Part shown: positions 19,152 to 31,900 of the stretch, one piece after another
How the letters are laid out: every line of letters begins with the position of its first letter
How positions within the stretch are numbered: position 1 is the stretch's first letter
Assembly: GCA_017525225.1 (NCBI GenBank)
Contig: JAFXTB010000160.1
Coordinates: 1-33,130, forward strand
Length of the DNA: 33,130 nucleotides
Source of the DNA: Kiritimatiellia bacterium
GTDB lineage: Bacteria > Verrucomicrobiota > Kiritimatiellia > RFP12 > UBA1067
Direction: 5' to 3'
Notes under the pieces: model-generated
What the model was told of the DNA's origin: nothing
Databases searched by the model: none
Seen by the model: only the letters and a program-made list of their open reading frames with translations
Made by a program: the position numbers and the translations under genes

Positions 19152-19512
19152 TTCTCTTGCCATTTTGGGGCGCATGCGATTTTCGTAGGGCATAAACCAC
19201 GGAAAACACGGAGACCCGTGTTCACGGGACACCGAAATCAGCACGAATGAGGCCTCTGGGTGTCTTGCTGGCAGGTGTCCATCTTCTATCTACCGATATT
19301 CGTAGGGGCAATCATCGGCTGAAATGCGTGAAACATCCATTCTACAGCCGTTTCCGTGCCGTACAAGGGTACGCTTCCGAGTGTTCCGTGGTTGAACCAA
19401 CCTAACAGAATCTGTCCGCCATGCCAGTGTTGTCAGATTGGCGGTAAGTTGTCGTATAATCGTGTAAGACCACGCCGTGGAATACGAGTAACACATGGAC
19501 GGGGAAACAAGA
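19152..19512 (+). other. Intergenic region with a short hairpin and a promoter
   Basis: No coding gene is evident. CCCGTG-TT-CACGGG (19215-19228) is a perfect small inverted repeat within a stretch of CACGGA-type repeats that looks like decayed dispersed sequence. The rest shows no clear feature apart from the promoter given separately. Confidence 0.5.
19430..19460 (+). promoter_or_regulatory. Probable promoter of the lipoprotein gene
   Basis: TTGTCA (19430-19435), 19-base spacer, TATAAT (19455-19460). The spacer is longer than optimal. The -35 lies in TTGTCAGATT, the same ten bases that open the four-copy element at 20257 and 31369. Confidence 0.5.
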
Positions 19513-20253
19513 ATGAAACCGATGAAAAAGATGATTGCCATGTCAATAGTGTGTCTGATGTTGGCGGGCTGTCCCGGTTGCCTTTCCTATTCGCACTACA
19601 GGTATTCCAAGCGGGCCGAGGCGGCGCGGACGCTACCTGTGGGAACGGTTGCGAGGCCTGGGCGAATCTATTTCGCGAACTTCCCTGAAAATAGGCTGGC
19701 GGTGGACATCATTTGCGGATGGCATCACAATGTTGGCCATGCGTCATTGGTGACACGCGACAAAATGGGACTGATCAAGCAATATGACTATGGCTGGCTT
19801 CTGGGACATGAAGAAGGCTGGCGGCCAGAATACGCGATAGGATATGTGGACAAGGACCTAAGCTATGGGACGGTGAGGCGTAAGGTATTTCCTGCCGAGC
19901 AGTCTGCCAGGGCGACGAATGATATGGAAATTGCACGAATGGTGCTTGATGGCATGGGGATCGATGAAGATGGTACGCCTCTTTATGGCAATAAGATTGA
20001 GATCTGGGCGAAGGATGTCGATGACATCGGCATTGCCGAACGCTACATGGAACATTTCGCCTACGATGAGAATCGCGGGTCGATGCTGTGGCGATGCTGG
20101 CAGATCGGCGGTTACCGTTGCGGCAATATCACGCGGCAGGCCTTCGATGCGGCTCGCGGTGAAGGGCATTTCCTTGATCTGCTCTGGGGTGGATTTCCCG
20201 GTGCCGACGCGCCCAGCATCGGAACCGAGAAAACGGTATATGTAAAGGAATGA
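19513..20253 (+). CDS. Lipoprotein, possibly a permuted NlpC/P60-like (LRAT-type) hydrolase
   Basis: A 246-residue protein with a type II signal: a Lys/Met-rich start, a hydrophobic run and the lipobox LAGC, so it should be lipid-anchored. Downstream 'WHHNVGHASLVTRD' and, later, 'GGYRCGNITRQAFDAA' give a His-then-Cys order like that of circularly permuted papain-fold enzymes (LRAT / DUF830 group), where His comes first and the Cys lies in a late helix. That assignment is a guess from two motifs. ATG 19513 has GGGGAA upstream; ATG 19495 adds six residues with a weaker site. The first copy of the four-copy intergenic element begins four bases after its stop. Confidence 0.62.
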   Translation: MKPMKKMIAMSIVCLMLAGCPGCLSYSHYRYSKRAEAARTLPVGTVARPGRIYFANFPENRLAVDIICGWHHNVGHASLVTRDKMGLIKQYDYGWLLGHEEGWRPEYAIGYVDKDLSYGTVRRKVFPAEQSARATNDMEIARMVLDGMGIDEDGTPLYGNKIEIWAKDVDDIGIAERYMEHFAYDENRGSMLWRCWQIGGYRCGNITRQAFDAARGEGHFLDLLWGGFPGADAPSIGTEKTVYVKE

Positions 20254-20440: not shown

Positions 20441-23059
20441 ATGCAGCAGATTGCTGAATATAAGCTTGAGTGCGAGATAGGCCGCGGCGCATACGGCACG
20501 GTATACCTTGCCGTCGGGCAGGACGGCGAACGCGTGGCGGTGAAGATCTGTTGCCGCGACGCGGTCGGCGACGAGCGTTACCAGCGCGAGCTGCGCGGAG
20601 CGAAGCTCTATAGCGCGATTCCGCCGCAGAATGGGCTTGTCCGCATGAGGGAACTCGCGGAGACGGACTGGGGCTTCTACACGGTGATGGATCTCGCGGA
20701 AGACGAATTCGGCCGGAAGATTTCCGGAGATGCCTCCTATAGGCCCAAGACCCTGGCCAGCGTCATCGCCGGTGAGAAGGCGTTGCCGCTCGACGAATGC
20801 GTAAAGCTCGGCATAGCGCTTGCGAAAGGACTCGCAACGCTTCAGCGCCATCACCTGCTGCATCGCGACATCAAGCCCGGGAATGTGATTTATGTCGCGG
20901 GATGTCCCGTTCTCTCCGATCCGGGGCTCGTCGTCGAGGAATCCGAGGCGGCGTCGAAAGTCGGAACGCCGCCCTACGCTCCCCCAGAGGGCTTCACCGG
21001 AACCGCCAGCGACATCTTCAGCCTCGGCCTCACACTCAAGGCGGCTAGTTTCGGTCGGCAGATCGAAGACCTCGACAAAGGTCCTGCGCTTGAGGCTGAC
21101 ACCGGCGCGAAGTTGTTTCCCGCATGGTGGCGCATCCTCAACAAGGCAACCGATCCTACTCCGTCCCGTCGCTACCAGTCCGCAAAGGCATTGGTAAAAG
21201 ACCTTGAAAGACTTCGTTGGAGAATGTCGTGGACGTTGCTTAGGCGTTCATGGCTGTTCTACACTGTGGTGGGGATCCTTCTTTCGTGTGCTGTCGCATA
21301 TATGTATGTGGTATTTCGCAAAACGAATGGGATTGAGGCCGAGATCAAGCCGCTGAAGGAGTTCAAGAACGGCATGGAAGAGCAGATTGAACGCTCGAAG
21401 CGCGAAGCGATTGAGAAGGTCGCAAAAGCAAAGGAAGGCCTTGATGGTTTCACGTCGCACTTGAACGAAATGGTGGAGGAGCGCAAGAGGAATGCCGAGA
21501 GGATTAAACGGGATTCCTTTTGGGTTTCTTCACATGCTTTCAATGCATACACCGATGGCATCTCCGATAATGCGAGACTAGAGAAAAAGATAGCGTGCGG
21601 CATTGCTGAAATCAAGGCAATCAACAAAGCGAACTCAGAGCAGCTCCAGGCATCTTTAAACCAGATCACCAACATTGCGGCAAAAGAAGAAGCGTTAGAC
21701 CGGAAAATCGACTCGTTGCACAAGCAGGCCGAAGAGAAGCGGAGAAAAGATCTCGATGACAAGGAAGAGTATCTTCAAGCAAAAATACTCAACGAGAATA
21801 GAGTCGAATTGCATAAGTCATTGCAAAATACCGTCGCCGATTTGAACACCGCCGAGACGAACATGCTTGAGAGAATCAATCGGGATTGGTTCTGGGATTT
21901 GCATAACAGCGGTACGTGCAGACTTGATTCTGAATCCATCATAGATTGCATAAAACGCTCCATTGCCGTAAAGGAGGCGAGGATATATTTCGATTATGGT
22001 CCTGACCCTGACCGGAAAAAATCGCTTGTAAAATGGTACAACGAGCACTTTGAAAACTTTGTCAAACACGAGGAGATCCACGCATTGGCGCGACAGAAGT
22101 TTGCCCATCTGATGAAACTGGCTGATGAAAAGACCCAAGATGGCCTTGACGACTCGGCAGAACTTCTCGAGCTGCGTTGGTGTTTCTTCAGAGATAATTT
22201 CTATTACAATCACCTTATAAACACAACGCATCTCGACTGGCTGTTGAAGACCAGCTTCTCGGATCGAGTGCAGTTTGATTATGAGTTTTATGATGCCAGA
22301 AACTTCTGTCTCAGGCTGGAATCCTATATGGATTTGTTTAGACGCGAGATAACCACAATTGCCGAGGAGGACAAGGAACTCGGTGGGAAACTTCGGTCAG
22401 ATTTCGACAAACTTGGTAAACTCCTAGCAAAAGAATCCTCATGTCAAAAAGACATTGACGTTTTGCATGAAAAGGCCAGCAAAAAGAAGCAAAATGGCCT
22501 TGATGACATGGAAGAGTTTCTGCAAGCGCAGAAAATCGCTGAAGAGGTAAAAACATTCCATAAAAAAGAACTAGAGCCACTTGCCAGCAAGCTATATTGC
22601 CGCATGCGCGATTATAAGCACAAGAAATCAAAGTGGAGCGATCTGTATGGATACCGGCATTATAGTCTTGATGTGGAATTGGCAAGGCAAGGTATAACCG
22701 AAGTATCCAAACTTAGCAAAGAGATTGCGTCCATGTTGCAGACGGAATTGGATAAGCTTATCAAAGGCAATACGAGGGCGGCGCCGCTGCAACGTGAAAT
22801 TGACCTACTGCGCAAAAGAGCCAAGGGGAAACTGCGCAATGGACAAGACGATGAGGAGGAATGTCGCAAAGCAAAAGAGATTTACGAGAAGGAATTGAGA
22901 CTCTATAACTATGAGATAAGGAATCAGGTGGAACTTGACATCTTGGATTCATTGGTAAGCGATGTGTGGCGCAGGTCGGTGTCGCCGGATAGATGGGCGG
23001 ATAAGAGCCGAAATGGGCTATGGCGCATTGAGCAGAGAAAAGAGGGAGAAGGAAAATGA
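20441..23059 (+). CDS. Transmembrane Ser/Thr protein kinase with tandem-repeat ectodomain (kinase 1)
   Basis: A 872-residue Hanks-type kinase. The glycine loop is 'GRGAYG' (14-19), the ATP lysine Lys35, the helix-C Glu probably Glu50, the catalytic loop 'HRDIKPGN' (141-148), and the metal motif is DPG (160-162) rather than DFG. 'PPE' replaces APE, and helix-F Asp191 is present. A transmembrane helix lies near 270-292. The remaining ~580 residues, presumably outside the membrane, are helical and carry four related segments near 423, 549, 672 and 787 ('IDxLHxxA...GLDDxEE' pattern), spaced about 115-125 residues apart. ATG 20441 is chosen because kinase 2 starts at the same 'MQQIAE' with a similar leader. 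The gene overlaps the sigma-factor ATG by four bases. The ectodomain is lower in GC than the kinase domain. Confidence 0.9.
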   Translation: MQQIAEYKLECEIGRGAYGTVYLAVGQDGERVAVKICCRDAVGDERYQRELRGAKLYSAIPPQNGLVRMRELAETDWGFYTVMDLAEDEFGRKISGDASYRPKTLASVIAGEKALPLDECVKLGIALAKGLATLQRHHLLHRDIKPGNVIYVAGCPVLSDPGLVVEESEAASKVGTPPYAPPEGFTGTASDIFSLGLTLKAASFGRQIEDLDKGPALEADTGAKLFPAWWRILNKATDPTPSRRYQSAKALVKDLERLRWRMSWTLLRRSWLFYTVVGILLSCAVAYMYVVFRKTNGIEAEIKPLKEFKNGMEEQIERSKREAIEKVAKAKEGLDGFTSHLNEMVEERKRNAERIKRDSFWVSSHAFNAYTDGISDNARLEKKIACGIAEIKAINKANSEQLQASLNQITNIAAKEEALDRKIDSLHKQAEEKRRKDLDDKEEYLQAKILNENRVELHKSLQNTVADLNTAETNMLERINRDWFWDLHNSGTCRLDSESIIDCIKRSIAVKEARIYFDYGPDPDRKKSLVKWYNEHFENFVKHEEIHALARQKFAHLMKLADEKTQDGLDDSAELLELRWCFFRDNFYYNHLINTTHLDWLLKTSFSDRVQFDYEFYDARNFCLRLESYMDLFRREITTIAEEDKELGGKLRSDFDKLGKLLAKESSCQKDIDVLHEKASKKKQNGLDDMEEFLQAQKIAEEVKTFHKKELEPLASKLYCRMRDYKHKKSKWSDLYGYRHYSLDVELARQGITEVSKLSKEIASMLQTELDKLIKGNTRAAPLQREIDLLRKRAKGKLRNGQDDEEECRKAKEIYEKELRLYNYEIRNQVELDILDSLVSDVWRRSVSPDRWADKSRNGLWRIEQRKEGEGK

Positions 23060-23685
23060 CATACCGACACTTCAACAACGAAACGACGCGATCCAGCGTG
23101 CTGAGGGCTGTCGCGAACACGGAGAACGAGGCGGCATGGCAGCGGCTGTTCGACCTCTATGCCGGATTCGTCTTCTCCATCGCACGCAGCAAGGGTCTTA
23201 AGCCAGAGGATGCCGACGACATCGTGCAGGTCGTATTCATGGATCTCGCGCGGAATCTCCCGACATTCCAGTACGACCGCGCGAAGGGCAGGTTCAGGTC
23301 GTATCTCACGGGGCTGGTGCATTGGCGCGTCATGGACAGGCTCAAGGCGGGGAAGCGCGACGCGGAGCTCAAGGAGTCGTTCTTGGAGGAGGCCAAGGCG
23401 TCCGCCACCGCCGATGACAACGACTTTGCAGAACGCGAATGGCAGGCGGCGGCTATGGAAGAGGCGTTGCGCCGGATGAAACCGGATGTTCGGCCCGAGC
23501 ATTACGCGGCGTTCGTCGCGAGCGCGGTGGAGGGACAGGATACCGAGGCCGTGATGAAGCTCTACGGTCTTTCCCGCGACAACCTGTACCAGATTCGCGC
23601 GCGCCTCACGGCGAAGCTGCGCGAGACGACGGCGGCGGTCATCGCCGAGATGGATTCTCCCGATGCGCCTGGTCCTCGGCCTTGA
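23056..23685 (+). CDS. ECF-type RNA polymerase sigma factor
   Basis: A 209-residue sigma-70 family protein. Region 2 is visible as 'LFDLYAGFVFSIARSKGL' and 'EDADDIVQVVFMDLARNL', with 'RFRSYLTGLVHWRVMDRLKAGKR' forming the -10 recognition helix. Region 4 ends in a helix-turn-helix, 'AVMKLYGLSRDNLYQIRARLTAKLRE'. There is no sigma-3 domain, which defines the ECF class. Its ATG overlaps the kinase stop (ATGA) and has GGAGAAGGAAA upstream, so the two are translationally coupled. Kinase-partnered ECFs are known (for example Vibrio EcfP with PknT), where phosphorylation activates the sigma factor. The 3' end overlaps the convergent ATP-grasp gene by 47 bases. Confidence 0.9.
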   Translation: MTYRHFNNETTRSSVLRAVANTENEAAWQRLFDLYAGFVFSIARSKGLKPEDADDIVQVVFMDLARNLPTFQYDRAKGRFRSYLTGLVHWRVMDRLKAGKRDAELKESFLEEAKASATADDNDFAEREWQAAAMEEALRRMKPDVRPEHYAAFVASAVEGQDTEAVMKLYGLSRDNLYQIRARLTAKLRETTAAVIAEMDSPDAPGPRP

Positions 23686-24574
23686 TCGCATCGGCGACCA
23701 TTGAAACGAGCCCGTGTTCGTTCTTCTCGTCTAACCACGCCCATTGGCCGTTGGGATTCAACTCAAGGAACCACAGTTCGCCGTCCTTGCGGATGAAGTC
23801 GAAACGTCCGAACCTGTAGCCGGTCTCATCCATGAAGCCCCTGATGGCGCGTTCGTCTTCGGGCGAGAGTTCGCAGCACGGCCACGAAATCGGATTCACG
23901 AAAAGCGCCTTGCGTGAGTCTTCGCCGCCGAACGAATCGCGCGGCGCGTTTGCCGCGTATGTTTTGCCGTCGATGTATACGACAGTCACCTCCTCCTCCC
24001 CCGCAATCCTCTCCTGGACGAACCACGGATAGGAAAGGTCGAGGGCGGACGGGACGACCTCCTTCACGAAGAATACCTTGCCTTTTCCAATAGGGGTTTG
24101 CGTCAGTGCCTTGACGACCCATCTTCCACGTTTGAGTTCTTCTGGTAGTTCGCCGTGGAAAATATGCCATGGCGCAACGCGAAAATGCCGTTTGGCGACG
24201 AGTAGTTGGCGTAGCTTGCCGTACTTGTTGTTCTGGCTGCGCACCAGCGCGGTCAACCCGCGGCTTTGGCATTCGCGGAAGAAATCGTTGAAAAGTTCGT
24301 CGGTTTCCTCTCTCCGCCAATTCTCGACGCACCCAAACTTTGGAACGTCAATCAGATCGAAATACATGGGCTTACGAAGATAGAACGACGTTAGTGTCTT
24401 GTCGGTAATCTCCTTCCCGGAAACCTTGTCAGCGACGCGAAACCCATTGGCGTGGAAATCCCACGCAAAGTATTCTGGTTTGTCTATGTTGAAGCGCAGG
24501 ACATCGTTTGGGTCTAGCTCTTGCATTACGATGTCCGTTGTTTTATCTTGGCTGCAAGTGGAAATGAAAATCAT
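23639..24574 (-). CDS. MvdD/graspetide-type ATP-grasp peptide ligase
   Basis: A 311-residue ATP-grasp ligase of the RiPP (microviridin MvdC/MvdD and grasp-with-spasm) class. The N-terminus 'MIFISTCSQDKTTDIVMQEL' and the later 'SFYLRKP' have the pre-ATP-grasp pattern of these maturases. 'NKYGKLRQLLVAKRHFRVAPW' and 'WFVQERIAGEEEVTVVYIDG' follow. The metal-binding signature 'RFDFIRKDGELWFLELNPNG' continues into 'QWAWLDE', which I regard as diagnostic for this group. Such enzymes use ATP to join Asp/Glu side chains of a precursor to Ser/Thr (ester) or Lys (amide) side chains. GAGGAAT precedes the ATG by seven bases. It lies directly downstream of a 47-codon precursor candidate and an ABC exporter on the same strand. 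Confidence 0.88.
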   Translation of the reverse strand: MIFISTCSQDKTTDIVMQELDPNDVLRFNIDKPEYFAWDFHANGFRVADKVSGKEITDKTLTSFYLRKPMYFDLIDVPKFGCVENWRREETDELFNDFFRECQSRGLTALVRSQNNKYGKLRQLLVAKRHFRVAPWHIFHGELPEELKRGRWVVKALTQTPIGKGKVFFVKEVVPSALDLSYPWFVQERIAGEEEVTVVYIDGKTYAANAPRDSFGGEDSRKALFVNPISWPCCELSPEDERAIRGFMDETGYRFGRFDFIRKDGELWFLELNPNGQWAWLDEKNEHGLVSMVADAIKAEDQAHRENPSRR

Positions 24575-24604: not shown

Positions 24605-24632
24605 CATGGGGCTGGCGTTGGCCAGCCCCATG
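24605..24632 (-). terminator. Strong intergenic hairpin between precursor and ligase genes
   Basis: A perfect 12-bp stem (CATGGGGCTGGC with its complement) and a 4-base loop lie 19 bases after the precursor stop and 30 bases before the ligase start. No T-run follows on the minus strand, so it is more likely a partial attenuator or mRNA-stabilising 3' structure than a full terminator. Confidence 0.6.
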
Positions 24633-24651: not shown

Positions 24652-24795
24652 TCAATCGCTTGAGCGTTGATCATCAGGGACAAAGCCGGATCCCGCTGGT
24701 CCGAGGCAGTATGTTGCCATGGTGGACCAGTTGACGCTTCCCTCGCCAACAGGGCTGAGTCTTGCGACGTCGGTCGCGATTTCATTTGGTGTCAT
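24652..24795 (-). CDS. Putative graspetide precursor peptide (47 aa)
   Basis: A 47-residue peptide between the ABC exporter and the ATP-grasp ligase. The start has an AAGGAAAC ribosome-binding site at ideal distance within a clean A-rich leader. The N-terminal part (MTPNEIATDVARLSPVGEG) is helical and could serve as leader. The C-terminal part is rich in hydroxyl residues (Ser24, Thr25, Thr28, Ser36) and ends in Asp41, Asp42 and Asp47, the side-chain partners that graspetide ligases join. Cys30 is also present. The canonical microviridin PFFARFL leader motif is absent. An in-frame ATG further upstream lies inside the exporter gene and is less likely. Size, position and residue bias support the call; modification is inferred. 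Confidence 0.72.
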   Translation of the reverse strand: MTPNEIATDVARLSPVGEGSVNWSTMATYCLGPAGSGFVPDDQRSSD

Positions 24796-24817: not shown

Positions 24818-24850
24818 TTGGTTAACCAATGCAGCGGACACCCGTCCGCT
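24818..24850 (-). promoter_or_regulatory. Two inverted repeats upstream of the precursor
   Basis: TTGGTTAACCAA (24818-24829) is a perfect 12-bp palindrome. AGCGGAC-ACCC-GTCCGCT (24833-24850) is a 7-bp stem-loop overlapping the exporter stop. They lie 22-55 bases before the precursor ATG and could be an operator or an mRNA processing site. No T-run follows. Confidence 0.45.
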
Positions 24851-26522
24851 ACAAGATCGTATACGAGGGTTGTTCTGGAATCTGACAAAAAATCTTTTCG
24901 TCGCAGAGGTCTATGAGCGCCGGGTCGTGGCTGACGACAAGGACGATGCGCCCGAGCGCGAGACGGCGGAGCAGTTTCCCGAATGTCTCACGTGCGTCCG
25001 CATCGAGATGGTTGGTCACTTCATCCAGGACAAGAATGTCCGGCTTGCGCACGAGTGCGCGCGCGATGGCGAGGCGTTGCATTTCGCCTCCCGAAAGAGA
25101 CTGCCCATTGAGTCCGACTCGCGTGTCCAGCCCGTTGGGCAGCCTTTCGACTACTTCGCCGAGTCCGCTGAGCATCACCGCCTCTTTTATGCATTCCTCT
25201 GTAAATGCCGGATCGCGCAGTGTGATGTTGTCGCGCACGGTGCCTGAAACGAGGAGACTATCCTGGAAAACGGCACCAATGCTTCTTCTGAATGCGTATG
25301 CGTCAAGCGTCTTCAGTTGCTGTCCGTTTACGAGAATTTCGCCGGACTGTGGTTCTAGGGCTGCTGTGGCAAGCTTGAGAAGCGTAGTCTTGCCCGTGCC
25401 GTTGTCCCCTACAAGCGCGACAACCCTGCCGACACGGAAGATGGCCGAGAAATCCTTGATGACAGGCCTTGCGTCAGAACCCGGATAGGCGAATGTCACG
25501 TTGCGGAATTCGATACTTTCGATGGAATCCAGGCGACGGCCCCGCAATATTGGCGGCTCGCGATTGAGTATTTCACCGAGCGAGTCGATGCCCTCGCGGA
25601 GCGCGGCGGTCTCGGGAAGAAGCGAGACGATTCCCTGCACTGACTGCATCGCCGTAAGGAAGAGCATCTGATACACGACCACGTCGCCTACGGGAATTAA
25701 TCCTTTGGTGACGAACATACCGGCGAGGCCGAGTACGGCGACTTCGCCGGCAACGAGGATTGAATTGAGGATGGCTCCGAATGCCACGGTCAGGCGGTCC
25801 ATCGCGCAGTTTCCGTCCTTGAGGGCGGCAAGCGACTTGCGCGGTGAATCGGCGAATCGGTGTCCGGCCGCGAGTATCTGCAGAAAAGGCAACGAGTGGA
25901 AGAAGTCGAACAGCACGGCGAAGGCCCCGTCGCTTCTCTTTCGTACGGCGTGGGATGTTGTGGCGAAGTGGCGTGAGAATGGAAGAAAGAGGACTATCGA
26001 GAACGGAATAAACGCCATGAACGCAAATCCGAGCGCGGGAGAACGCGAATACAATGCGAAGCCAGCGGCGAACATCGTGACGATGGCGGTGAGAAGGTGC
26101 GGGTAGAGTCCGGTAACGAACCCGCCGACCGCATACGTATCGCGTGTGAGTTTTGCGACGAATGTACCCTCGGCGAGAGGTGATAGCTCTGGCGGGGGAA
26201 GGTCCATGATGGCGCAAATGGTCTTTTCTTGCAGCTTCAGTTCGATGCTGCGCGCCCGCGAAAGGATGAACCGCTGGAGGCAGGGCGTCATGATCGCCCG
26301 GATGAACAGCAACACACAGAGCGTGACAAACGGCGCGACTGGCGACATCCTGCCGACGAGCGAGTCGATGAATCGCCCCGTGGCAAAAGGAACGGCGATT
26401 CCGGCGACGGTCAGCGCGATCAGGAGTGGAGAATATGCAAACACAATCGCCGGGGACGACAGTATGGTAGAAGCAAGGAAACTTATCCTGCCGAAGTTCG
26501 ACTTTTTCTTGTCAGTATCCAT
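24849..26522 (-). CDS. ABC exporter (membrane domain fused to ATPase), likely RiPP exporter
   Basis: A 557-residue half-transporter. The first ~330 residues contain hydrophobic helices ('VFAYSPLLIALTVAGIAVPF') of the ABC-exporter membrane type. The ATPase domain begins near residue 337 ('IEFRNVTFAYPGSD') with Walker A 'GDNGTGKTTLL', Q-loop 'GAVFQDSLL', signature 'LSGGEMQRLAIARAL', Walker B 'ILVLDEVTNHLD' and H-loop 'VVSHDP'. No C39 peptidase domain precedes the membrane part, so it would not itself cleave a leader. ATG 26522 was chosen because the protein begins like other exporters there; the open frame continues upstream across an intergenic repeat and the promoter of the divergent gene, which is implausible. 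It is the first gene of the precursor/ligase operon. Confidence 0.88.
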   Translation of the reverse strand: MDTDKKKSNFGRISFLASTILSSPAIVFAYSPLLIALTVAGIAVPFATGRFIDSLVGRMSPVAPFVTLCVLLFIRAIMTPCLQRFILSRARSIELKLQEKTICAIMDLPPPELSPLAEGTFVAKLTRDTYAVGGFVTGLYPHLLTAIVTMFAAGFALYSRSPALGFAFMAFIPFSIVLFLPFSRHFATTSHAVRKRSDGAFAVLFDFFHSLPFLQILAAGHRFADSPRKSLAALKDGNCAMDRLTVAFGAILNSILVAGEVAVLGLAGMFVTKGLIPVGDVVVYQMLFLTAMQSVQGIVSLLPETAALREGIDSLGEILNREPPILRGRRLDSIESIEFRNVTFAYPGSDARPVIKDFSAIFRVGRVVALVGDNGTGKTTLLKLATAALEPQSGEILVNGQQLKTLDAYAFRRSIGAVFQDSLLVSGTVRDNITLRDPAFTEECIKEAVMLSGLGEVVERLPNGLDTRVGLNGQSLSGGEMQRLAIARALVRKPDILVLDEVTNHLDADARETFGKLLRRLALGRIVLVVSHDPALIDLCDEKIFCQIPEQPSYTIL

Positions 26523-26612
26523 TCTTGCATAACATACGATGCCGTCACAGAAATCTGACATTGACATCTTCGATAAAGTAGCAAAACATCCGATGTTGGT
26601 GGTGGTCTGGTT

Positions 26613-26701
26613 GGGCACGATTGCGAAGAAAATGGCTAATCGTGCCCGATTTGAGCATGATTTTCTGGGCACGATTACGAAGAAAAAGGCTAATCGTGCC
26701 C
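26613..26701 (+). repeat. Tandem pair of 35-nt imperfect-palindrome repeats
   Basis: Two units at 26613-26647 and 26667-26701, 54 bases apart. Each has perfect arms GGGCACGATT and AATCGTGCCC around a 15-base loop (GCGAAGAAAATGGCT and ACGAAGAAAAAGGCT). They lie between the divergent exporter operon and the AAA ATPase gene, just before the latter's -35. Confidence 0.9.
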
Positions 26702-26759: not shown

Positions 26760-28193
26760 ATGAAAGATTTCTTTGGAAGAGATGAATTGTTGGACGCTTT
26801 GAAGACACTGTGGGCAAAGCGCGTTTCTTCGCTTGTCACATGTCGTGGGAGACGGCGCATCGGGAAGTCTACTCTCATTGAGGAATTCGCTTCTCGCAGC
26901 GGAGCGTTCTTCATCAAGATCGAAGGTTTGCGTCCCAAGGCGGGGCTTGCGAACAGGGACGAACTCGCATATTTCGCATCCTCCCTTGCAAGGCAGACTG
27001 GGTGCGACAAGACGCCGCCGGAAGATTGGCTCTCGGCATTTTCGCGACTCGACCGCGAGATTCCCGATGGAAGGCGCGTAGTCGTTCTTCTGGACGAGAT
27101 ATCGTGGATGGGATATTACGACAAGACGTTTCCTGAAGTACTCAAGACGGCATGGGACGATCTGTTCAAGAAACATCCGAAGTTGGTTCTTGTCCTTTGC
27201 GGAAGCGTGTCGATGTGGATCAAGGAAAACATTATCGACAATGGTGCGTTTGCCGGGCGTCGATCATACGATCTGATGGTACCGGAACTGCCGCTTGCCG
27301 ACTGCGTGAAATTCTGGGGAAAGTCAGCCAAGCGGGGGAACGCCAATGACATCCTTGATGTCCTTTCCGTGACCGGAGGCGTGCCAAGATATCTCGAAGA
27401 GGTCAATCCGGCGCTTTCCGCCGATGAAAACATCAGGCGTCTTGCCTATCTTCCGAAGAGCGTCCTCGCGGAAGACTTCGAGGATATGATTCGCGATGTC
27501 ATTACGGGCGAACCTGATGTTCGGGCGGATATCCTGCGCGCGCTCGTCGGAGCGCCGAAGAACGTGTCCGAGATATCCGAAGCGATCGGGAAGAAGAAGA
27601 ACGGACATCTGTCTTCCGCGCTTGAGGAACTGGCCGAGGCAGGCTTCATCGTCGCCGACCAAGGAATCAACCCCGAAACGGGCAAGCCGGCCAACTCGCT
27701 TCGATACAGGCTGAAGGACAACTACGCGCGGTTCTATCTCCGCTATATCGAGCCGGTTGCCCGCATGGTGGACAGTGGCGCTTTCGCGTTCACGTCGCTT
27801 GAACAGCTGGGAGGGTGGAGTGCCGTGAAGGGGTTCGCGTTCGAGAATCTCGTGGTAAACAATTTTCGTGAGTTTCTCGCACCCTTGGGCCTGGAACGCT
27901 CCTTGGTCCTCTCTGCCGCGCCGTTTCGCAGGGACAGCCGTTCGGGAAACGGCGGCACGCAGGTGGATCTCATGCTGCAGACGGCTCTCGGCGTCTATTT
28001 CGTGGAGATCAAGCGACAAGCGGAGATCGGACGAGAGGTCATAGAGGAAGTCGCCGAGAAGGTGAGGCGGGTCCGCGTGCCGCGCGGGAAGGCGGTCAAG
28101 ACCGCGCTTGTATACAGCGGTCATCTCGCCCCCATTGTGGAAGCGCAAGGCTACTTCAACGCTGTGATTGACATGCAAGACATTCTCTTCTGA
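26760..28193 (+). CDS. AAA ATPase with nuclease-like C-terminal domain (DUF234-type)
   Basis: A 477-residue 'archaeal-type' STAND/AAA ATPase. The N-terminus 'FFGRDELLDALKTLW' and Walker A 'RGRRRIGKST' (29-38), Walker B 'VVVLLDEISWM' (about 106-116) and sensor-like 'LCGSVSMWIKENI' are clear. 'SVTGGVPRYLEEV' and a winged-helix region ('NVSEISEAIGKKKNGHLSSALEEL') follow. The C-terminus contains 'QVDLML' and 'VYFVEIKRQ' (about 400-420), a PD-(D/E)xK nuclease-like core. These genes occur in many scattered copies and their function is poorly understood; conflict or selfish roles have been proposed. AGGAGTG precedes the ATG by about seven bases. Confidence 0.85.
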   Translation: MKDFFGRDELLDALKTLWAKRVSSLVTCRGRRRIGKSTLIEEFASRSGAFFIKIEGLRPKAGLANRDELAYFASSLARQTGCDKTPPEDWLSAFSRLDREIPDGRRVVVLLDEISWMGYYDKTFPEVLKTAWDDLFKKHPKLVLVLCGSVSMWIKENIIDNGAFAGRRSYDLMVPELPLADCVKFWGKSAKRGNANDILDVLSVTGGVPRYLEEVNPALSADENIRRLAYLPKSVLAEDFEDMIRDVITGEPDVRADILRALVGAPKNVSEISEAIGKKKNGHLSSALEELAEAGFIVADQGINPETGKPANSLRYRLKDNYARFYLRYIEPVARMVDSGAFAFTSLEQLGGWSAVKGFAFENLVVNNFREFLAPLGLERSLVLSAAPFRRDSRSGNGGTQVDLMLQTALGVYFVEIKRQAEIGREVIEEVAEKVRRVRVPRGKAVKTALVYSGHLAPIVEAQGYFNAVIDMQDILF

Positions 28194-28324: not shown

Positions 28325-29689
28325 ATGCAACAGATTGCTGAATGTAAGCTTGAATGTGAGATAGGCCGCGGCGCATACGGCAAGGTATACCTTGCCGTCA
28401 TGCCGGACGGCGAACGCGTGGCGGTGAAGATCTGCCAGCGCGAGGACATCGGTGACGAGCGTTACCAGCGCGAGCTGCGCGGCGCGAAGCTCTACCGGTT
28501 GATTCCGCCGCAGGAGGGGCTTGTCCGCATGAGGAACCTCGTCGAGAAGGACTGGGGTTTCTACACGATCATGGATCTTGCTGACGACGAGTTCGGCGGT
28601 TCTCCTGGCTCTCCGGAAGCCTACCGCCCCAAGACGCTTGCAAGCGTCATCAAAGGCGAGAAGGCGCTGCCGCTGAAGGAATGCGTCAAGCTCGCCATTG
28701 CGCTTGCAAAGGGACTTGCCGCGCTTCAGCGTCACCATCTCCTGCACCGCGACATAAAGCCGGGGAACGTGCTGTACGTCAAAGGCAAGCCCGTGCTTTC
28801 AGATCCCGGCCTTGTCGTCGAGGAGTCCGCATCGGTCTCTACCGTCGGCACTCCGGAATATATTCCGCCTGAAAGGAAGTTCACGGCCGCGGCAAGCCAC
28901 ATATACAGCCTCGGCCTCACACTCAAGGCGGCGAGCTTCGGCCGGCAGGTCGAAGACCTCGACAAGGGGCCTGCGATGGAGGCCGACACGGGCGAAGCGT
29001 GCTTCCCCGCATGGTGGCGCATCCTCAACAAGGCGGCAGACCCCGTTCCGTCGCAGCGCTACCAGTCCGCCAAGGCGCTTCTGAAAGACGTCGAGATGCT
29101 CCGGCTCAGGATGGTGGCGTCGTCGGTCTGTCGTTCATGGATGCTTTATGCGGCGATGGCACTTCTTCTGCCGTTGGTTGGGGTATACATATATAGGTTT
29201 TCCCGCGAAAGGGACAGACTCACGTCCGCACTGGAGACTGCTTCCCGCGAACTTGACGCGGCTTCCCGCGAAAGGAAGCGGCTGGAACCAGAGATTAAAC
29301 GGGTGAAAAAGTTTGAGGACGTCAGGAAACGTCTGGACGACATGTCGGCGAAGGACCCGTTGGCCTGGTCGTGGTTCAAGGGATCGTATTTCTGCCGCAC
29401 GGATGAATCGTACATGCAAAAGCTGAAAAGGGCGGAGGAGAAGGATCCGGCGATTGCTGCGAAGATGCGTGGCATTATCGAAACGCTGCAGAAGATCGAC
29501 AAGAAGGGTGAAGAGAACAACCGGCGGATAAAGGCACTGCAAGAAGAAGCCGCGACGGGACAGGGCGCTGCCGAGAAGTACAATCAGGCCGAAATGCTCT
29601 CTCGGGCGAACGCCAAGCTTGTCCAGGCCTGGCTGTCGCATGTGGAGCAGTTCACGTTGCTGGAGGATGAAGTCAAGGCGAAGGAGTGA
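28325..29689 (+). CDS. Transmembrane Ser/Thr protein kinase (kinase 2, paralogue of kinase 1)
   Basis: A 454-residue kinase whose first ~290 residues closely match kinase 1, at both protein and DNA level. Lys35, Glu50, 'HRDIKPGN' (141-148) and DPG (160-162) are retained. At the helix-F position, however, the Asp (Asp191 in kinase 1) is His192 ('SHIYSLG'); this Asp normally anchors the catalytic loop, so activity may be reduced. A membrane helix lies near 272-293. The outer part is a ~160-residue coiled-coil-rich region containing only one copy of the kinase 1 repeat pattern ('RRIKALQEEA' region). No sigma factor follows. The start has GGGACAAC upstream and matches kinase 1. Confidence 0.9.
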   Translation: MQQIAECKLECEIGRGAYGKVYLAVMPDGERVAVKICQREDIGDERYQRELRGAKLYRLIPPQEGLVRMRNLVEKDWGFYTIMDLADDEFGGSPGSPEAYRPKTLASVIKGEKALPLKECVKLAIALAKGLAALQRHHLLHRDIKPGNVLYVKGKPVLSDPGLVVEESASVSTVGTPEYIPPERKFTAAASHIYSLGLTLKAASFGRQVEDLDKGPAMEADTGEACFPAWWRILNKAADPVPSQRYQSAKALLKDVEMLRLRMVASSVCRSWMLYAAMALLLPLVGVYIYRFSRERDRLTSALETASRELDAASRERKRLEPEIKRVKKFEDVRKRLDDMSAKDPLAWSWFKGSYFCRTDESYMQKLKRAEEKDPAIAAKMRGIIETLQKIDKKGEENNRRIKALQEEAATGQGAAEKYNQAEMLSRANAKLVQAWLSHVEQFTLLEDEVKAKE

Positions 29690-29896: not shown

Positions 29897-30127
29897 ATGA
29901 TTCAGGTAGACAGCATGGTGGAAATCGCCGATTCTGTGCGTAAGGCACGTAAGGAGCAAGGAGTGTCTCAGACGGTTCTTGCTCAGCTTTCCAATGTTGG
30001 TCTTCGTTTTCTTTGTGAGGTTGAACATGGAAAAAGCACGGTGAGGTTCGACAAATTGCTGTCCGTCCTGACTTCGCTTGGAATTACGCTGCGGCTAGAA
30101 ATGCCATCGGAGTCTTCAAATGCATGA
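29897..30127 (+). CDS. hipB: HipB-like antitoxin (XRE helix-turn-helix)
   Basis: A 76-residue DNA-binding antitoxin. The XRE fold is seen as 'ADSVRKARKEQGVSQTVLAQLSNVGLRFLCEVEHGK', with the recognition helix around 'NVGLRFLCEVE', and 'TVRFDKLLSVLTSLGITLRL' forming the dimerising end. HipB binds and neutralises HipA and represses the operon. ATG 29897 has AGGA eight bases upstream; ATG 29915 (AGGT) is possible, and the longer GTG start would lie in the promoter. It overlaps hipA by eight bases. Confidence 0.87.
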   Translation: MIQVDSMVEIADSVRKARKEQGVSQTVLAQLSNVGLRFLCEVEHGKSTVRFDKLLSVLTSLGITLRLEMPSESSNA

Positions 30128-31361
30128 ATCGCTGAAAGTCTATCTGAAGAACAGCTTCGTAGGGTGGTTCTCCCATGAGACGGTCGGCGATGAGTATTCG
30201 TTTGAGTATGACAAGGACTATCTTGCGCACCCGGTCGAGGGCGCGCTTTCCTTTGCGTTGCCATTGACAGACGGGAAGTTCGATTCCACGCATGCCTTCA
30301 ACTTCTTCTCGAACCTGCTGCCTCCTCGTGTCGTCCGGCAACGGCTTGGCGCAAGTCTCCATTTGTCGCAGCATAACGTGTTTGGATTCCTCAAGGCCAT
30401 CGGCGGGGACTGCGCTGGTGCCGTGTCGCTCTATCCCTCATGGGCTAAACCGACACCACAGGATGTAGAGCATGTACGAGAGCTTTCCGAGGAAGAGGCC
30501 GTACGGATATTGAAATCACTCAAGCGCCGGCCGTTGTATGCAGCCGGAGAGGAGGGATACCGTTATTCCGGCGCTGGCGCACAGGACAAGCTGATTGCCA
30601 GGGTTGTGGACGGCAAGGTCATTTTGCCGCTCTACGGAACTCCTTCGACGCATATCATAAAGCCGCCGGCGGATGGATTTGAAGATTCGGTTATCAATGA
30701 ATGCTTTTGCCAGTGCCTTGCATCGAGAGTCGGACTTCCCGCATCGCGTGCTGAAATCATAATGCTTGGCGGCGAGGGGTACTATGTTTCGGAACGCTAT
30801 GATCGCGAAGTTGTCTCGGGCAAGCCAATTCGTCTGCATCAGGAGGACTTCTGTCAGTTGCTTTCCGTCGATCCTGAGATGAAGTACGAAGCGGATGGCG
30901 GTCCGTCGATAGCGGACTGCATCTCCGTCATGCGCCGCATGAGGATGACCGCGACGAGTCAGCTCGCGTTTATCGATTCAATAGTGTTCAACTACATTAT
31001 CGGTAACGCCGACGCGCACGCGAAGAACTTGTCGGTCGTTTACCACGGCAAAAGCGCCGTGCTGGCACCGCTCTACGATCTGGTGTCCACCGTAGTCTAT
31101 CCTGAACTGTCAAGGGAGATGGCGATGGGTATTGGCGGCGAGATGCGGTTTGTGGCGATAACCCGTGCAAACTTCTCCAGGATGGCCAGCGGTTGCGGCA
31201 TTTCGCCGAAACTCGTGCTGTCGCGCCTTGATGCTCTTTGTGGCCGCGTAACCACTGCGGCTGAACGCCTAGCCGAGGAATTCAACGCTTCCTGGCCGAG
31301 CGGTATGTACGGAAAGATCATAGAGACGATAACGTCACACGTCGCGCAAGTGGCGTCCTGA
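30120..31361 (+). CDS. hipA: HipA-family serine/threonine kinase toxin
   Basis: A 413-residue full-length HipA. The N-terminal domain (couple_hipA; 'HPVEGALSFALPLTDGKF', 'FNFFSNLLPP') precedes the PI3K-like kinase. The ATP loop is 'YSGAGAQDKLIARV' and 'STHIIKPP' holds the ATP-binding Lys. The catalytic loop is 'GNADAHAKN' (295-303) and 'LAPLYDLVST' holds the metal-binding Asp. E. coli HipA phosphorylates glutamyl-tRNA synthetase and induces growth arrest; HipA homologues may target other synthetases. The exact target here is unknown. It overlaps hipB, an operon arrangement typical of toxin-antitoxin modules. Confidence 0.93.
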   Translation: MHESLKVYLKNSFVGWFSHETVGDEYSFEYDKDYLAHPVEGALSFALPLTDGKFDSTHAFNFFSNLLPPRVVRQRLGASLHLSQHNVFGFLKAIGGDCAGAVSLYPSWAKPTPQDVEHVRELSEEEAVRILKSLKRRPLYAAGEEGYRYSGAGAQDKLIARVVDGKVILPLYGTPSTHIIKPPADGFEDSVINECFCQCLASRVGLPASRAEIIMLGGEGYYVSERYDREVVSGKPIRLHQEDFCQLLSVDPEMKYEADGGPSIADCISVMRRMRMTATSQLAFIDSIVFNYIIGNADAHAKNLSVVYHGKSAVLAPLYDLVSTVVYPELSREMAMGIGGEMRFVAITRANFSRMASGCGISPKLVLSRLDALCGRVTTAAERLAEEFNASWPSGMYGKIIETITSHVAQVAS

Positions 31362-31504: not shown

Positions 31505-31900
31505 GTGGCGCTTCGGCGAAGTGGGGGCATCCTCGTTTCGCTGCGGCAAAACAGATTTCTCGCGCAGGGATGGTCGCGCATTCCGCGACCGCCGGGAGGG
31601 ACGCGCCCCGTCGCGTCCGCTACCAACCCTGCGGACATGGGAAGCGTCGGATGGAAGCCTGAGAAACTTCACCGGAAAGACGCACGAAGAAGACGCTGCC
31701 ATACAGTGCAGTTTCGCCTCCTTTGATGTATCAATCCGGGCTCTCTCAGGCGCCTCATCCGATGCATCGGAGGAGGTTTCCGTTTTCCGCCCCCGCCGAT
31801 GTCTGGAAAGGAGCGCAAGCTCCCAGGGAGACTAGGCTTGTAGTCACTCTCGCGGGATGTCGGGCTGAAGACAGTGCGAGATCGAAACAGAGGTTGCAAG
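31505..31900 (+). ncRNA. Long structured leader or standalone RNA before the zinc-ribbon/LRR gene
   Basis: About 395 bases without a convincing gene. Besides GC-rich hairpins at 31572-31618, it has TCCGATGCATCGGA (31758-31771), GGAGC-GCAA-GCTCC with a GNRA-type loop (31810-31823), GACTA-GGCTTG-TAGTC (31830-31845), and an interrupted hairpin 31848-31881 with outer TCTCGC/GCGAGA and inner TGTC/GACA stems. Such dense pairing suggests a functional RNA. It does not look like tmRNA, RNase P or 4.5S RNA to me. Confidence 0.45.
31572..31618 (+). repeat. Paired GC-rich REP-like hairpins
   Basis: GGTCGCG-CATTC-CGCGACC (31572-31590) and GGACGCG-CCCCGT-CGCGTCC (31599-31618) are perfect 7-bp inverted repeats nine bases... 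apart (8 nt between). GGGACGCGCCCCGTCGCGTC-type sequence is a common dispersed REP-like unit in GC-rich genomes, which I state from memory. Confidence 0.6.

Follow-up and report, generated by a model that had tools for sequence, protein, structure and literature searches.

The window analysed here is a 33,130-nucleotide stretch of DNA from a Kiritimatiellia bacterium, in which a first-pass annotation had proposed that a 47-residue open reading frame at positions 24652–24795 may be the precursor of a new graspetide group or one with a divergent leader. The locus raises the question of whether this frame is a graspetide precursor at all, whether it belongs to a group of its own, and which of its residues would close the rings.

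Identification and distribution of the precursor gene

The precursor gene lies on the minus strand, which the annotation had left out, where positions 24795 to 24652 form a single open frame of 47 residues and a stop codon. It encodes the peptide MTPNEIATDVARLSPVGEGSVNWSTMATYCLGPAGSGFVPDDQRSSD, with a leader of approximately residues 1–19 and a core of approximately residues 20–47. The length and the residue numbers given earlier for the candidate ring residues (S24, T25, T28, C30, S36, D41, D42 and D47) are correct. A purine-rich AAGGA is located about 9 bases 5' of the ATG. Translation from another frame, which the annotation had raised against its own reading, is excluded: the plus strand of 24652–24795 contains no open frame and the frames of the relatives agree. 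The frame and its start are further supported by their conservation among these relatives.

The frame is followed on the same strand by a gene for an ATP-grasp ligase (23639–24574, 311 amino acids), and we searched for this protein in 161 genomes of the order. Matches were found in 26 genomes, of which 23 are full length and three are broken by contig ends. An upstream precursor frame is present at all 23 full-length loci (22 identified by script and the one in G121 from its reading frames), and the gene order exporter–precursor–ATP-grasp is kept in 19 of them. A profile (A1) built from 19 precursors matched 24 of the 161 genomes, exactly once each, namely the 23 with full-length loci and G084, where the match lies just upstream of the ligase fragment. 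The window precursor, itself one row of the profile, matched with E = 1.1e-20 in its own genome. As most matches are rows of the profile, this search mainly demonstrates the absence of second precursor copies. The other two ligase fragments (G023 and G070) have no precursor, and their contigs end inside the ligase gene. In G057 (the same record as L054; L029:3736-3970), an in-frame TGA falls within the core, after its Thr part and ahead of its Asp part, despite open ligase and exporter genes, which reflects either a broken gene or a sequencing error. The cluster is absent from G049, the other searched member of the window's genus (genome 84% complete).

A pattern scan of one genome per species (84,980 species) yielded 79 loci among the best 80 of 441 confirmed stretches. 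Within these best 80, 23 loci (L052–L074) belong to the window's family; most derive from rumen or gut bins, and many carry the label Kiritimatiellae or Verrucomicrobia. Two more, from Verrucomicrobiaceae (L075) and Puniceicoccaceae (L076), show 45–46% identity and eight others (L078–L081 and L083–L086) 29–36%. Three are fragments of near relatives (L077, L082 and L105), and the remaining rows are more distant graspetide-type ligases. The L053 cluster, 85% identical, sits inside a bin labelled Selenomonadaceae and is probably on a misbinned contig.

Conservation of the leader and the core

Neither the window precursor nor any of the 19 alignment rows matched a family in NCBIfam, and the same 19 rows gave just three single-member matches in Pfam (E 0.099–0.16); assignment to a known precursor family was rejected after these scans. 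A MAFFT alignment of the 19 precursors, made without any assumption on residue 30 (two rows carry an extra residue after M1), revealed that M1, T2, P3, T28, D41 and D42 are invariant and A7 and T25 nearly so, and that residue 30 is Ser, Thr or Cys in all 19 rows.

The annotation had expected a variable leader, but the leader, M-[ST]-P-x-[DE]-I-A-T-x-I, is the best-conserved part of the precursor. In all rows M is followed by T-P, S-P or A-P and then by an acidic residue two positions past the proline (N-E or N-D after Pro3, and across the relatives P-x-[DE]). This motif is unlike published leader motifs, and the PFFARFL leader, correctly reported as missing from the window precursor, is missing from its relatives too. 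Candidate precursors of the next relatives begin with SPVDVAENI and SPSDVAKNI (L075 and L076), TPADFATTP and TPSDFAATP (L081 and L085) and LTPADLSQAP (L080), and no clear candidate was seen in L084 or L086. L078–L080 share a block, ST(S/T)EFHLPAYDWNKQTRHD, and have core ends of GQPKDSQNDxND or similar; together with L083 they carry a different precursor type, that is, a second core plan within the window ligase branch.

The core was compared in a table of 26 precursors (the window and L052–L076; two cores are identical). T28 and the Asp pair are present in all 26, while T25 is Thr in 22 and Met, Leu or Val in four, each of which has Ser or Thr at position 24 or 26. The number of residues between T28 and D41 is 6 in six rows, 10 in twelve, 11 in seven and 12 in one. 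The kept core is T25xxT28-x-[S/T/C]30-x(3-9)-D41D42. When the G084 precursor, which has T28-F-C30 and the Asp pair, is included as the 27th, residue 30 is Ser in 12, Cys in 9 (8 of the 26) and Thr in 6. The script that anchored the 26-row table required Ser, Thr or Cys at this position, so support for residue 30 comes from the MAFFT alignment and inspection. On the ligase tree (see below), residue 30 of the 26 precursors has changed at least nine times, always to Ser, Thr or Cys, and at least five of these changes are between Cys and non-Cys. A shuffle test retrieved this conservation in 0 of 20000 trials, against a background of 19% Ser, Thr or Cys in variable core positions; the shuffled cores were not re-anchored and kinship was ignored, so the case leans on the tree count and the MAFFT alignment. 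Judging from these comparisons, conservation of residue 30 by drift is unlikely.

These results sort the ring residues suggested by the first-pass annotation. T25, T28, D41 and D42 are kept, as its proposed alignment of homologues was expected to show for the C-terminal residues, but Ser36 sits in a loop that varies in length and sequence, and Asp47 is replaced by Gly, Gln, His, Arg or Tyr in many relatives. The arrangement, described as unrecognised, is indeed not TxxT-plus-EE, yet it resolves to TxxT-x-[STC]...DD, a TxxT plan in which DD replaces EE and residue 30 is added. Cys30 had been mentioned as an afterthought, as a further possible site; its position is always nucleophilic, and it is in fact the most interesting residue of the core.

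The ATP-grasp ligase forms a separate branch

The ligase matches four graspetide-maturase models, with every score far under the curated NCBIfam cut-off. The best match is TIGR04187 (GRASP_SAV_5884; E = 3.3e-22, 79.1 bits versus a cut-off of 350), followed by MvdC (E = 2.9e-15, 56 versus 425 bits), MvdD (28 versus 475) and GRASP_w_spasm (25.5 versus 230). Relatives from Streptomyces and Actinomadura (L096 and L088) score above the TIGR04187 cut-off, at 396 and 376 bits. A comparison of the ligase profile with solved chains gave five matches, all of them graspetide ligases: AMdnB (1.5e-18), MdnB (2.7e-16), CdnC (9.8e-13), MdnC (7e-11) and PruB (9bou; 1.1e-10).

An AlphaFold model was built from a 48-row alignment (A3; pLDDT 92.2, pTM 0.89), and its fold is nearest to AMdnB, PruB, MdnB and MdnC. 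The first 28 Foldseek matches of the model are all graspetide ligases, as are the eight best in VIA-align (Z 16.3–13.1, rmsd 1.8 to 5.4 Å over 135–191 residues), where RimK comes next (Z 12.5). Superposition is limited to model residues ~93–308, with a whole-chain Foldseek rmsd of about 15–17 Å; the N-terminal domain either appears to occupy another position or was modelled incorrectly. In all 48 ligases, the far ones included, eighteen residues do not vary, among them R27, R67, K120, Q123, K155, Q187, D219, R221, D259, E271 and N273. The invariance of some of these (e.g. K120, K155, D219, R221, D259, E271 and N273), given their putative roles, is consistent with an active ATP-grasp enzyme.

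A phylogeny of 54 ligases (53 of the 79 loci and the window, leaving out fragments and some far rows) grouped the window with L052–L074 (24 rows, support 100/96), and this group was joined with L075 and L076 (100/100). The 34 near rows are split from the 20 far rows, which include L088 and L096, by a fully supported long branch (100/100); the tree has long branches among its deep rows, for which the tool issued a warning. The ligases of the window's family form a branch of their own that is mainly verrucomicrobial. Among all alignment columns compared, ligase residue D92 best follows residue 30 of the precursor (Asp in 8 of 8 Cys30-type loci versus 2 of 18 others, uncorrected for kinship), and D92 is a possible determinant of Cys use that we offer as a lead only.

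Gene neighbourhood

On the minus strand, the precursor lies between an upstream ABC exporter gene (24849–26522, 557 amino acids, with a membrane domain and an ATPase and no peptidase domain listed) and the downstream ligase gene. A plus-strand gene for an ECF sigma factor (23056–23685, 209 amino acids; TIGR02937, E = 5.6e-17, above cut-off) converges on the ligase gene with a 47-base overlap. Its start is in turn overlapped by 4 bases by a plus-strand gene for a Ser/Thr protein kinase with a long C-terminal region (20441–23059; Pkinase, E = 1.4e-20). The next best match of the sigma factor within its own genome has 30% identity. A second Ser/Thr kinase (28325–29689, plus strand), whose membership of the cluster is uncertain, shares 76% identity with the first across the kinase domain; the pair lies on either side of the graspetide genes, and within the genome each matches only the other at E 1e-20 or better (kinase domain). 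Beside it lies a HipA-like gene (30120–31361; HipA_C 1.8e-48, Couple_hipA 1.2e-21).

Gene context was counted by running tblastn with the window proteins against 23 loci, the window among them, and several misses fall at contig ends. The exporter is in order in 19 of the 23, with a weak opposite-strand match in two more. The sigma factor is present in 19 (one a 27-residue fragment and four at 42–45% identity) and missing in four within the available sequence, some at contig ends. The kinase was found in 17 loci and is missing within the available sequence from the other six, some at contig ends, one of which has a 61-residue piece of it. A lipoprotein-like frame between the third promoter-like site described below and the kinase gene (19513–20253, plus strand) is absent from the 22 other loci. 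It was considered as a leader peptidase and rejected, having just a weak, sub-cut-off Dioxygenase_C match and this restricted distribution.

Promoter-like sites and RNA hairpins

A promoter-like site, TGTCAGATT-N13-CGTAT, occurs before the precursor (24861–24887, minus strand, within the 3'-terminal part of the exporter gene), before the exporter (26534–26560, minus strand) and before the lipoprotein, kinase and sigma factor genes (19431–19457, plus strand). The pattern TGTCA...CGT is typical of ECF promoters. Across the 4.2-Mb genome, a search allowing up to one mismatch returned three sites, all exact and all within the cluster, while the backward control returned none and simple arithmetic predicts ~0.03 exact sites by chance. 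Using regular expressions, the site was detected immediately ahead of the precursor in 22 of the 23 loci, some with small letter or spacing changes, and the 23rd (G157) has a looser site farther upstream. All 19 in-place exporters are preceded by the site, 14 by regular expression and five with one mismatch. In G156 and G024 the precursor site is present without an overlapping exporter coding sequence, so it is not kept merely for the exporter protein that it overlaps elsewhere.

As the exporter, the precursor and the kinase–ECF pair share this promoter type, the sigma factor next door is the natural candidate for the cluster's switch: most likely it turns the cluster on and is itself probably switched by the kinase. 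A literature search on kinase–ECF promoters gave no usable match. Within the window genome the sigma system seems to serve the cluster alone. Sites with up to one mismatch are found in 67 of the 161 genomes, including genomes that lack graspetide genes, where they precede other genes; in sister genomes these include genes for an HtrA-like trypsin-PDZ protease, MreB and a Sel1-repeat protein. The sigma system thus reaches beyond the graspetide and may be a regulon for envelope functions or stress, with the graspetide cluster attached to it. In G103, G029 and G077 (L032:797-2372, L223 and L236), the site precedes an HtrA-like secreted protease, identified by Trypsin_2 and PDZ domains in the G103 copy and by shared sequence in the other two. 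Since known graspetides inhibit serine proteases, a link between the product and this putatively co-regulated protease is worth considering. Frames with recurring words (LRTWEASDGSLRNFTGKT and similar) were also noted at window positions 31521–31835 and in L227, L247, L250 and L043; in the other genomes they lie shortly after a promoter-like site and represent a dispersed repeat or a small gene family.

Two hairpins are predicted in the RNA of the minus strand. One is located in the 5' untranslated region of the precursor (24830–24853), near the expected transcript start, and is followed by TTGGTTAACCAA. Most base pairs of its stem are preserved among the loci, and some show changes on both sides (one pair goes from CG to TA in three rows, and another from AT to GC, CG or TA in one or two rows), in a comparison whose simple rule did not properly locate two distant rows. 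The other, obtained by folding, is a strong G+C-rich hairpin between the precursor and ligase genes (24606–24631), and a counterpart is found in the 23 folded loci. Putative roles in protecting the mRNA and maintaining a high precursor-to-enzyme ratio would fit both hairpins. An RNA-family search with the two returned no family, its single match being irrelevant (E 0.58). Two near-identical 35-base inverted repeats (GGGCACGATTxCGAAGAAAAxGGCTAATCGTGCCC; 26613–26647 and 26667–26701) precede an ATPase gene (26760–28193) and have no further copy in the genome when up to three mismatches are allowed.

The proposed product and its alternatives

The locus shows three features of the graspetide class: a microviridin-type ATP-grasp ligase beside the precursor, donors (Ser, Thr or Lys in the class) and acceptors (Asp or Glu) conserved towards the C terminus of the peptide, and a conserved N-terminal leader. 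The class is further characterised by macrolactone or macrolactam links between side chains. We consider it probable that precursor and ligase constitute a graspetide system of a distinct, mainly verrucomicrobial branch that operates, in full, as follows. The leader would dock on the ligase, which would phosphorylate D41 and D42 on their side chains. These acids would then be attacked by the side chains of T28 and of residue 30 (Cys in the window), producing two nested rings in a hairpin, and T25 (or S24) may provide a third link in members with an extra terminal acid. A protease encoded outside the operon would remove the leader near G17-x-G19, and the ABC exporter would ship the product; no leader peptidase for the precursor was found. 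For the window itself, we tentatively propose the first native thioester graspetide, linking Cys30 to D41 or D42 (an omega-thioester), in a rumen-type bacterium and from a cluster under its own kinase–ECF sigma pair, and we hold this to be possible and rather less than an even bet.

A short frame with no Pfam or NCBIfam family match might be dismissed as a chance reading frame, but it stands in frame before the ATP-grasp gene at all 23 full-length loci (with the in-frame TGA in one relative). This conservation refutes the chance reading, to which we give practically no credence, and the frame very probably encodes a graspetide precursor, as the annotation had supposed; the ATP-grasp neighbour and the core and leader shared by relatives support this. 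The enzyme could instead resemble RimK in function and add an amino acid or other group to the peptide, given that the two enzyme types have a common fold and that RimK is next in the structural ranking. Set against this, the maturase models that match are those of graspetides, only graspetide ligases pass the profile threshold among solved chains, and paired conserved donors and acids in the precursor fit side-chain cross-linking, which makes a RimK-like activity very improbable.

Which donors form the rings is less settled. TxxT-type plans are the classical ones, and a graspetide in which T25 and T28 are joined to D41 and D42, with residue 30 kept for another reason such as hairpin packing, would agree with Thr in 22 of 26 precursors at position 25 and in all 26 at position 28. 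However, T25 is replaced by Met, Leu or Val in the other four, whereas residue 30 is Ser, Thr or Cys in all 26 and in G084, and we regard this pairing as an unlikely, if possible, one. A somewhat better case, still short of even, can be made that sulphur takes no part in cyclising the Cys-type cores, so that Cys30 is free, in an intermolecular disulphide or otherwise modified, with one ring only. The main text of PMC13097080 names Ser, Thr and Lys as graspetide donors, calls thioesters non-native and reports no native graspetide thioester. On the other hand, ATP-grasp ligases accept altered donors and can form thioesters with changed substrates, as described in passages of PMC12291112 and PMC13097080, and Cys has been exchanged with Ser or Thr at residue 30 at least five times on the ligase tree. 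Cys30 is moreover the sole cysteine in six of the nine Cys30 precursors (the window, L053, L054, L055, L058 and G084; further cysteines are present in L052, L071 and L066). An internal disulphide is therefore impossible in these six, and a general disulphide role was rejected. Under the reading that we prefer, with T28 and residue 30 as donors, Cys30 may act natively as the donor of a thioester.

Comparison with known graspetide systems

The proposal of a new graspetide group apparently holds, and the family may yet coincide with one of the 43 numbered groups, which are defined by core consensus and by place in the ligase network. No group described in main-text sections of PMC13097080 fits the family, and "Verrucomicrob" is absent from that main text. 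The main text of PMC8939145, which lists 174 families drawn from a March 2016 genome set, does not mention Verrucomicrobia. Its leader motif Phhx(1,2)h (Pro with two hydrophobics), reported there for about half of the precursors, does not fit the window leader. Among the records listed by searches of the graspetide and ATP-grasp literature on Kiritimatiellae, Verrucomicrobia and thioesters, none reports the family in its title or the start of its abstract, and the precursor family seems undescribed so far.

If the proposed system is real, graspetides extend to rumen and gut Kiritimatiellae and other Verrucomicrobiota, a clade unnamed in the main texts of PMC8939145 and PMC13097080. A new leader type should define a new ligase specificity, and ring closure by Cys in some members would be new for graspetides, with thioester rings providing chemically reactive handles. 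That Ser, Thr and Cys replace one another at a single donor position amounts to a natural experiment on donor choice: as the same ligase family has apparently encountered each of them, its native pairs, such as the Ser-type L057 and L060 and the Thr-type L068, would allow thioester, Ser-ester and Thr-ester formation to be compared. A closed ECF regulon would also offer a way to predict when such clusters switch on.

Like the microviridins (MdnA with MdnB and MdnC), the window has a short precursor beside an ATP-grasp ligase of the same fold (MdnB, Z 16.0; MdnC, Z 15.5), and microviridin cores contain a TxxT element, as does the window core. Unlike them, it has no PFFARFL leader, its acids are DD, residue 30 is Ser, Thr or Cys in the family, and there is one ligase rather than two, 22–28% identical over the superposed part. 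Plesiocin (PsnA and PsnB) has a nested two-ring layout with adjacent acids, set in TT...EE repeats. The hairpin with two nested rings expected for the window product, with its two adjacent acids, resembles this layout, but its T-x-[STC]...DD element occurs once. Plesiocin is also the hairpin example given in the main text of PMC13097080.

The branch-1 graspetides of CPR bacteria (Makarova et al. 2022, PMC8939145) are described in the main text by TxxxTx(6-10)Dx(1-4)D and share with the window two donors and two Asp acceptors; they differ from it in that the window has TxxT spacing and an adjacent DD pair, and in that their leaders carry the Phhx(1,2)h motif. The actinobacterial ligases of the TIGR04187/SAV_5884 type provide the best NCBIfam match and, with PruB from Streptomyces coelicolor, the second structural match (Z 16.1). 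The window ligase nevertheless scores 79 against the 350 bits of that family, its precursor belongs to no NCBIfam family, and a fully supported long branch separates its own branch from the far rows, which include two ligases above that cut-off.
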